NCBI GenBank assembly: GCA_021324735.1
Contig: JAJPIO010000019.1
Coordinates: forward strand, 1-60,574
Reading direction: 5' to 3'
Source: Bacteroidota bacterium
GTDB taxonomy: Bacteria > Bacteroidota > Ignavibacteria > Palsa-1295
DNA length: 60,574 nucleotides
The stretch's first letter is position 1. Each line of letters begins with the position of its first letter. This document shows, in pieces, positions 2,504 through 60,390 of the stretch. Both the position numbers and the translations under genes were made by a program. The notes below the pieces were generated by a model. It did no database searches and had not been told where the DNA came from. It saw only the letters and a program-made list of their open reading frames with translations.

Positions 2504-2648
2504 CGTAGAGGCCGTAACCTTTAGGTTACGGCCTCCCAGCATTCGTAGCCGCAACCTTTAGGTTACGGCGGATCAAGAAGTTCGTAGCCGTAACCTTCAG
2601 GTTACGGCGTTCCCAGCAGTTCGTAGACGTAACCTTTAGGTTACGGCA
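2504..2648. repeat. REP family I array, four units at about 39-bp spacing
   Basis: Four near-identical palindromes start at 2504, 2544, 2583 and 2622. The core is CGTAGCCGT-AACC-TTTA-GGTT-ACGGC; the first copy extends to a 13-bp perfect stem (2508-2535). The units are separated by short unlike spacers. The last unit overlaps the 3' end of the RAYT gene and supplies its final three codons and stop. Together with the transposase next door, this is the arrangement expected of REP sequences. Confidence 0.9.
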
Positions 2649-3121
2649 TCACCAAACCAGGTTTTTAGATCGAACACTGTCGAGCCGACAAAAGGATAAT
2701 CCTGCCACTGATCGCACAATCCTGCTCGCACCGGATTATTGAGGATATAGAACATTTGCGTCCGCAAATCTTCATCGACCCGATGGATATGATCGTAAAA
2801 ATCCTCTTGCCATTGGACCTCATTGCCATGTCGCCCAAGCCAAAAGCCAGAATACTGTTTGAATTTCTTCATTGCTGTATAGGCATCTGCATTAGTTGAC
2901 ATACCGGTAATAATTACATGTACATGGTCAGGCATAAAGACATACAGATCCGATTCACATTCATGTTGTTTTAGCGCGCGCAATAAGTGATCGCGATGGA
3001 TTTCAAACCGGTCTTGAGAAATAAAGTATCTGGCTCGGCGAAGGATACATGCCGTAAAAGACACACGTGTATATCCCCTATACGCTTCCAGCGGCAGTCG
3101 ATGCTTCTTTTCAATTATCAT
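2636..3121 (-). CDS. REP-associated tyrosine transposase (RAYT, IS200-like Y1 family)
   Basis: This 161-residue protein is a single-domain HUH/Y1 enzyme. The HUH motif is DHVHVII (His66 and His68) and the likely catalytic tyrosine is Tyr109 in QEDFYDH. The C-terminal YILNNPVRAGL is typical of RAYT proteins. RAYTs cut and join single-stranded REP/REPIN hairpins. Unlike IS200 transposases they usually stay as single chromosomal copies that maintain dispersed REPs. The context fits: four REP units at the 3' end (2504-2648) and three REPIN units upstream (3176-3499). The stop codon (2636-2638) and the last residues AVT are read from REP unit 4. The C-terminus is shorter than in gammaproteobacterial RAYTs of about 165-220 aa. 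No IS ends or target duplications are visible, so it looks like a domesticated gene. Confidence 0.9.
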   Translation of the reverse strand: MIIEKKHRLPLEAYRGYTRVSFTACILRRARYFISQDRFEIHRDHLLRALKQHECESDLYVFMPDHVHVIITGMSTNADAYTAMKKFKQYSGFWLGRHGNEVQWQEDFYDHIHRVDEDLRTQMFYILNNPVRAGLCDQWQDYPFVGSTVFDLKTWFGDAVT

Positions 3122-3175
3122 GGGAGGACCCTAATACAAAAATAAGCATTGTTGCATGGAATTTCGCAGGAATTC

Positions 3176-3499
3176 CGTAGCCGTAACCTTTAGGTTACGA
3201 CGAATTCGAGCAACGTCATCCAACGACATGGACATTCTCAAACGGCGAGTTCGCCGTGACACAAATGTCACGGCTACCGTCGTAGCCGTAACCTTCAGGT
3301 TATGGCGAATCGAACCAATGTCATTCACACTACCCCACGCGACATTCTCGACCGGCAAGATCGCCGTGACATAAATGTCACGGCTACCGATCCGTAGCCG
3401 TAACCTTCAGGTTACGGCGAATCGAACCAATGTCATTCACACTACCCCACGCGACATTCTCGACCGGCAAGATCGCCGTGACATAAATGTCACGGCTAC
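3176..3499. repeat. Three REPIN-like units (inverted REP doublets), 102, 107 and 107 bp
   Basis: Units at 3176-3277, 3281-3387 and 3393-3499. Each opens with CGTAGCCGTAACC-TT(C/T)A-GGTTA and closes with GCCGTGACA-(C/T)AAA-TGTCACGGCTAC, which is the same REP family in the opposite orientation. The two differ in stem sequence but keep pairing (AACC/GGTT against GACA/TGTC). The second and third units are almost identical along all 107 bp, including a spacer of about 50 bp; the first is diverged. This matches the definition of REPINs, the units mobilised by RAYTs. Confidence 0.88.
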
Positions 3500-5166
<1,667 letters not shown>

Positions 5167-25244: not shown

Positions 25245-25337
25245 CGTAGCCGTGACCGTTAGGTCACCTTGTTTGCATTCGTAGGCGTGACCGTTAGGTC
25301 ACCTTGTTTGCATTCGTAGGCGTGACCGTTAGGTCAC
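25245..25337. repeat. REP family I-related array, three 35-bp units, between emrA and emrB
   Basis: Units begin at 25245, 25280 and 25315, each CGTAG(C/G)CGTGACC-GTTA-GGTCAC. The stem differs from the 2.5-kb REPs but keeps the CGTAG head and pairing. Flanks are exact tandem copies (CCTTGTTTGCATT). On the minus strand the units contain ATG CAA ACA AGG TGA, a four-codon reading frame, twice before the emrB start. Confidence 0.85.
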
Positions 25338-58470: not shown

Positions 58471-58585
58471 TGTAGCTCATGCTTTAGCTTGAGCCAGCGC
58501 ATTGTAGCTCATGCTTTAGCTTGAGCCAGCGCATTGTAGCTCATGCTTTAGCTTGAGCTAAGCGCAAGCTGAAGCATACGCTACA
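58471..58585. repeat. REPIN family II: two direct units and one inverted doublet
   Basis: TGTAGCTCATGCTTTAGCTT plus GAGCCAGCGCAT at 58471-58502 and 58503-58534. A third copy from 58535 is closed by an inverted arm (GCAAGCTGAAGCAT...GCTACA, to 58585). The arms of the doublet pair at 21 of 25 positions. The last five bases and the adjacent stop codon overlap the next gene. Confidence 0.85.
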
Positions 58586-60339: not shown

Positions 60340-60390
60340 TGTGGCTCATGCTTTAGCTTGAGCCCGCGCAAGCTGAAGCATGCGCCACAC
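60340..60390. repeat. REPIN family II doublet right after arr
   Basis: Left arm TGTGGCTCATGCTTTAGCTT plus GAGC, right arm GCAAGCTGAAGCATGCGCCA plus CA; compact, only about 4 bp between arms. Begins one base after the arr stop (60336-60338). Confidence 0.88.

Follow-up and report, generated by a model that had tools for sequence, protein, structure and literature searches.

The window analysed here is one whole contig (C5; 60,574 bases) of a 3.55-Mb genome assembled in 19 contigs. A gene for a 161-residue REP-associated tyrosine transposase (RAYT) lies on its minus strand, between a putative lipoprotein gene and a tnaA-like gene, both named by inspection. On the 3′ side of the RAYT gene stand four GTAG-footed hairpins in tandem (2505-2647), and three inverted doublets lie on its 5′ side. 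The features of the locus are:

ends 2489: putative lipoprotein gene
2505..2535 (+): REP unit 1 of the tandem array; GTAG foot with an AG insertion, AACC/GGTT stem, TTTA loop, 12-bp stem
2545..2569 (+): REP unit 2; one stem mismatch
2584..2608 (+): REP unit 3; perfect stem, TTCA loop
2623..2647 (+): REP unit 4; shares sequence with the 3′ end of the RAYT gene, stop codon included
2636..3121 (-): RAYT (TnpA_REP) gene, 161 aa, assigned by NF047646 match, structure and alignment; H66-x-H68, W104-Q105, D110, R114, Y125 (nucleophile), N129
3177..3277: REPIN-like doublet 1, 101 bp; left arm AACC type (+), right arm GACA type (-), GTAG feet outward
3282..3387: REPIN-like doublet 2, 106 bp; AACC / GACA arms
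3394..3499: REPIN-like doublet 3, 106 bp; copy of doublet 2 in tandem, 99% identical
3781-5166: tnaA-like (beta-eliminating lyase) gene

A preliminary description of this DNA had placed a Y1 HUH protein between a four-unit REP array and three inverted doublets of 102-107 bp. The four tandem units are present, and the GTAGCCG head that was said to be shared is common to the units and the doublet arms. Unit 1 has a two-base insertion (GTAGAGGCCG) that lengthens its stem. The last RAYT codons and the stop come from unit 4 read on the minus strand (GCC GTA ACC TAA; A V T stop). All three doublets are also there, but they measure 101, 106 and 106 bp and only two are independent, because doublets 2 and 3 are products of tandem duplication (99% identity over 107 bp, spacing 112). 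The two arm types keep their pairing as described: left arms are AACC/GGTT, right arms are GACA/TGTC, and both are fully or nearly paired. Folded as single-stranded DNA, the doublets outperform shuffled sequences (z of -3.1, -4.3 and -5.1). Elsewhere in the window, positions 25246-25337 hold three 35-bp tandem units with a GTAG-footed hairpin and a GTTA loop; the full outer stem occurs in the last unit only.

The RAYT protein

The 161-residue protein matches the NF047646 model for REP-associated tyrosine transposases (E=1.9e-26; 92.7 bits compared to a cut-off of 80), which places it among the RAYTs, and it also matches Pfam PF01797 (Y1_Tnp). The only PDB relative detected by sequence was Escherichia coli TnpA_REP (4er8; E=3e-8). 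An AlphaFold model with a mean pLDDT of 88.6 superimposes on 4er8 with a Z score of 16.5 and an rmsd of 2.2 over 143 residues, a predicted TnpA_REP fold. IS608 TnpA scored lower against the model (Z 11.6 over 100 residues), and structure comparison shows that the fold is common to the IS608 and ISDra2 TnpA proteins as well. The gene is single-copy, and the other Y1 proteins of its genome are at most 40% identical to it, the low-copy state of a gene that does not behave as an insertion sequence. REPs with a GT[AG]G foot flank it and are dispersed elsewhere in the genome. A search for relatives in viral contigs confirmed none.

The HUH motif, the catalytic tyrosine of the Y...NP motif and the W-Q-(E/D)-R foot-contact residues are all present. 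H66, H68, W104, Q105, D110, R114, Y125 and N129 are invariant in nine aligned sequences, a set that omits L161, which has an in-frame stop. The roles of W, Q, D and R as GTAG-contact residues are those given in PMC6006769. The preliminary description correctly named His66 and His68 in this open reading frame (2636-3121, minus strand) and took Tyr109 for the nucleophile. Tyr109 was rejected: a Trp occupies its aligned place in 4er8 and an Arg does so in one relative. The nucleophile is Y125, which lies in the motif YILNNP and aligns with Y115 of 4er8. The motifs DHVH, WQ and YILNNP correspond to the set [ND]HVH, WQ and YI[LR][NQ]NP that a table in PMC6006769 lists for TnpA_Y1 subclass 2.7 with its long GT[AG]G REPs. 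Together with the E-to-D change at the foot-contact site, they fit that subclass, and we call the protein subclass-2.7-like by motif. The literature searched contained no biochemistry for subclass 2.7.

Dispersed REPs, REPINs and stem variation

Searching the host genome (G000) with the pattern GTAGCCGTNACNTNNNNGTNACGGC at up to 3 mismatches gave 51 + 53 matches, palindromic copies being partly counted on both strands, compared to 4 + 3 for the reversed control. These numbers exclude chance. The pattern GTAGCCGNNNNNTTYANNNNNCGG (GTAGCCGN5TTYAN5CGG) fixes the foot, outer stem and loop and leaves the inner five pairs free; it gave 49 exact matches and 1 with the reversed control. The REPs are mostly extragenic. 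At the fetched loci, 12 of 63 copies fall inside an open reading frame of at least 150 aa, compared to 69% of random positions in the same loci, and eight of the 12 are in one tandem-array frame that the 48-bp period keeps open. At L054 (G000:C16:216500-221500, positions 2282-2850), a frame of 190 codons runs through seven REPs with a 48-bp tandem period and is probably no gene.

Pairs of REPs within 150 bp were compared between the host genome and the congener G004. At the fetched G004 loci, most of them picked since the exact-pattern search showed pairs in them, 26 pairs were feet-outward and 0 had another arrangement; they mostly span 59-94 bp, and the linker pieces TCGCGGAGCG and CACA recur inside them. 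The host genome has 34 such pairs: 14 feet-outward (74-131 bp), 2 feet-inward and 18 tandem. Close, dispersed, inverted pairs with their feet outward, the organization of a REPIN, therefore make up 26/26 pairs in G004 and 14/34 in the host. The host set looks older than that of G004 because singlet REPs are usually decaying REPINs (PMC8049555). Stem types are often mixed within single doublets (for example AACC with GACA, AACA with GACC, GCCC with GGCT), and the sequences of such doublets are the best available hint that one enzyme may use both types. Both GACC and AACC stems stand beside the G004 RAYT orthologue.

The inner stem varies and stays paired. Over 149 exact GTAGCCGNNNNNTTYANNNNNCGG matches in seven congeneric genomes there are 37 distinct left/right combinations, including eighteen distinct perfect inner stems. 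Pairing holds at 165/185 positions compared to 89.8 ± 6.6 after shuffling (maximum 113 in 10,000 shuffles). This set is wider than the C5 family, since some of the matches, with CCGGT and TGGGT stems, come from hairpins that flank other Y1 genes. At the third loop base, 78 matches have C and 71 have T; loop conservation within the set reflects the design of the search, which allowed only C or T at this place and fixed the rest of the loop. Independently of that search, de novo hairpin detection next to more distant relatives of the protein (46% and 38% identity) gave other stems and again TTCA or TTYA loops. Cleavage of Marinomonas REPMb is lost or impaired when loop base T12, T13 or A15 (TTNA) is mutated, whereas base 14 can vary (PMC8266576). 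The TTYA loop agrees with these required bases, a suggestive analogy.

REP abundance and RAYT genes across genomes

The preliminary description proposed that REP copy number should be compared with the presence of the RAYT gene, and this comparison was run. A close relative of the C5 RAYT occurs only in G004 (65% identity); the next relatives, at 46% and 40%, are in other families. C5-family REP matches (at most 2 mismatches, both strands) number 79 in G000, 85 in G004, 21 in G006, 8 in G003 and 1 each in G001, G002 and G005, and the 54 other genomes searched in the same way gave 0. Exact GTAGCCG-headed GTAGCCGNNNNNTTYANNNNNCGG matches number 69 in G004, mostly REPINs, and 2-14 in congeners without a C5-type RAYT. 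REP abundance is associated with the C5-type RAYT: G000 and G004 carry both, and tracking is good but imperfect. This is an association and not a statistic because only two species are positive. The matches retained in G006 and G003, which have no detectable RAYT orthologue, count against a simple dependence of the REPs on this gene; they are compatible with REP decay once a RAYT is lost, with a draft-assembly gap, or with another RAYT acting on them. In Pseudomonas and Stenotrophomonas, REP abundance likewise follows the RAYT and leftovers are explained by RAYT loss (PMC3686654, Nunvar et al.).

A second REP family, GCATGC-TTYA-GCTTGC, gave 24, 16 and 12 matches in genomes with a C15-type RAYT and 10, 8, 5 and 0 in those without, a weak association. 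Two copies of its TTCA form lie in the window at 58562-58584 and 60366-60388, and the RAYT of this family is on contig C15; with these copies, REPs occur near both ends of contig C5.

We looked for sites occupied in one genome but empty in another and found none, so mobility in this lineage was not directly seen. The congeners are about 75% identical in tnaA and hence too distant for site-by-site intergenic comparison. The fetched flanks of the tnaA orthologues of all six congeners contain no RAYT, and the other neighboring gene was not found there either, which leaves no clean empty site. The RAYT orthologue of G004 is located elsewhere, in a stretch that has no further gene in common with this end of the window.

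The host genome has six RAYT-like genes scoring above 60 bits and further Y1 genes with weaker matches, and across the genus most Y1 genes are surrounded by their own hairpins. Across 25 RAYTs, protein identity correlates with REP similarity (Mantel r 0.565; 0 of 10,000 permutations as high, permutation maximum 0.311), with one REP per gene hand-picked from the hairpin lists and the last partial genes left out. Another RAYT of the host genome (L057, G000:C17:4000-12000, positions 3040-4490) sits amid many hairpins (GTACTGGCGATCTCCGGATCGCCAG) that form inverted pairs on both sides of the gene; their foot is GTAC, not GTAG.

An unexpected observation concerns a distant Y1 branch, the Y...Q..HH (class 1) enzymes, which are not RAYTs. 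Five such genes of the genus are bracketed by GTAG hairpins (GTAGCCGCCGGTTTCAACCGGCGG) with their feet outward:

G000:C13:77503-77952 (loci L216, L037), and also L128, L129, L136 and L139: bracketed Y...Q..HH genes

In a wider test of class 1 genes, the bracket was found at 4/4 fetched loci of the genus and at 0/26 in the other genera among the relatives searched. The outcome was the same when any foot was allowed, and shuffled flanks were never bracketed. No bracket was seen around the MAQS-type Y...Q..HH genes of the genus. Y...Q..HH is the motif of subclass 1.2 in PMC6006769, and the accessible part of that paper reports no REPs for this subclass. These enzymes may possibly have gained GTAG brackets, either as RAYT cargo in trans or by acquiring REP recognition of their own, although we regard this as rather doubtful. 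If it is true, the bracketed genes would represent a transition between IS-type and REP-type enzymes, caught in one genus.

Interpretation and alternatives

The locus is very probably a REPtron, a single-copy subclass-2.7-like RAYT amid cognate REPs that its protein would cleave and mobilize in all their stem variants. The view of the preliminary description that the RAYT lies among its own REPs and REPINs has good support from the protein family and structure and from the dispersed copies, orientation and extragenic position of the repeats. The HUH/Tyr125 enzyme would bind a single-stranded REP (GTAGCCGT...TTYA... hairpin) through the GTAG foot, the outer stem and the TTYA loop and cleave beside it, and through this cleavage inverted pairs could spread as REPINs while the DNA replicates. 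Only pairing would be required of the middle of the stem, allowing one enzyme to take AACC, GACC, GACA, ACCC and other stems, even mixed within one REPIN. Copying of the hairpin repeats around the host genome by the C5 RAYT is most likely, and the RAYT probably serves several stem subfamilies because the inner stem varies yet stays paired. The preliminary description had suggested such sharing; mixed-arm doublets and compensatory stem changes support it indirectly, and the idea is not new in light of PMC3733652 and PMC6006769.

The distribution of stem types could also be read as history. GACC is the commonest type in the host genome (15/49 exact matches) and is missing beside the RAYT gene, where the REPs are AACC and GACA, and GACA occurs only at C5 and in one C15 cluster. 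This mismatch counts against a single enzyme using every variant and would be expected if the C5 RAYT now moves only AACC and GACA, the GACC copies having been spread by an earlier state of the gene or by a lost RAYT. The host genome is also rich in the tandem and single REPs that the literature reads as decaying remnants, and PMC3686654 explains variant mixtures by an "orthoswitch" of the REPs flanking a RAYT and describes REPs that persist after RAYT loss. Against such a history, single doublets combine two stem types, and GACC and AACC both flank the G004 orthologue. We consider the historical account possible but unlikely.

Two further readings are far less probable than that. If the locus were a plain IS200/IS605-type insertion sequence ending in hairpins, this would account for the Y1_Tnp match and the fold common to IS608 and ISDra2 TnpA, but the match to the IS200 model NF033573 reaches 13.7 bits where the cut-off is 55, the gene has no close relative in its genome, and dozens of hairpins occur without the gene, often as feet-outward pairs; we give this reading almost no credence. 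Nearly as improbable is that the hairpins are transcription terminators or RNA elements whose closeness to the RAYT is incidental. Their extragenic position, stability and compensated stems would suit such elements. In contrast, the constant GTAG foot, the lack of a T-run, the feet-outward pairing, the restriction to a few congeners and the co-divergence of REPs with RAYT proteins do not. A secondary RNA role may exist beside the RAYT-linked one.

Relation to known REPtrons

The system resembles the E. coli REPtron (TnpA_REP, 4er8; Y, Z1 and Z2 REPs) in its HUH-Y1 fold, its GTAG foot, the presence of more than one REP subfamily around one gene and the three inverted pairs at the gene. It differs in that E. 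coli REPs have longer stems and a required bulge, whereas the REPs here have 8 (or 9) perfect pairs and a TTYA loop, and protein identity to E. coli TnpA_REP is 21% over the structural alignment. The Group 3 REPtron Mb of Marinomonas sp. MWYL1 (PMC8266576) belongs to another lineage and shares the GTAG foot, the perfect stem and the TTTA loop, of which bases 1, 2 and 4 matter there. Subclass 2.7, as described in PMC6006769, shares the three motifs, the change of E100 to D and long canonical GT[AG]G REPs; it is reported there from Cyanobacteria and a few other phyla, and the member here is short (161 aa). Stenotrophomonas and Pseudomonas (PMC3686654) offer a close parallel: a genome has several RAYTs with a separate REP for each, REPs are numerous where the cognate RAYT is present, some persist once it is lost, and REP variants switch beside orthologous RAYTs. 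Those RAYTs are monophyletic per group, whereas the other RAYTs of this genome are at most 40% identical to the C5 protein, and the host genus here is related to Ignavibacteria/Kapabacteria, the second name being a guess of the preliminary description.

All the main features have been described in principle for other bacteria, and the system is of a known kind, found here in a branch related to Bacteroidota that has been little studied. REP subfamilies with alternative complementary stem residues are described in PMC3733652, and nearly half of tnpA_REP genes have more than one REP subfamily around them according to PMC6006769. The view in the preliminary description that RAYTs and REPINs are a gammaproteobacterial system was too narrow: PMC6006769 and PMC3733652 place GTAG REPs or RAYTs in several phyla. 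A search of openly licensed papers found no report of a RAYT, REP or REPIN in this lineage.

RAYTs and REPINs illustrate clearly how bacteria can keep transposases as single-copy genes alongside a population of tiny repeats; the experiments on them that we found were done in gammaproteobacteria. The genus adds about 25 RAYT/REP pairs in seven genomes in which protein and hairpin divergence are correlated. Like a natural mutagenesis series, the repeats show an inner stem that is free to change provided it stays paired. The recognition code of foot, outer stem and loop thereby becomes directly testable beyond the two groups studied so far.
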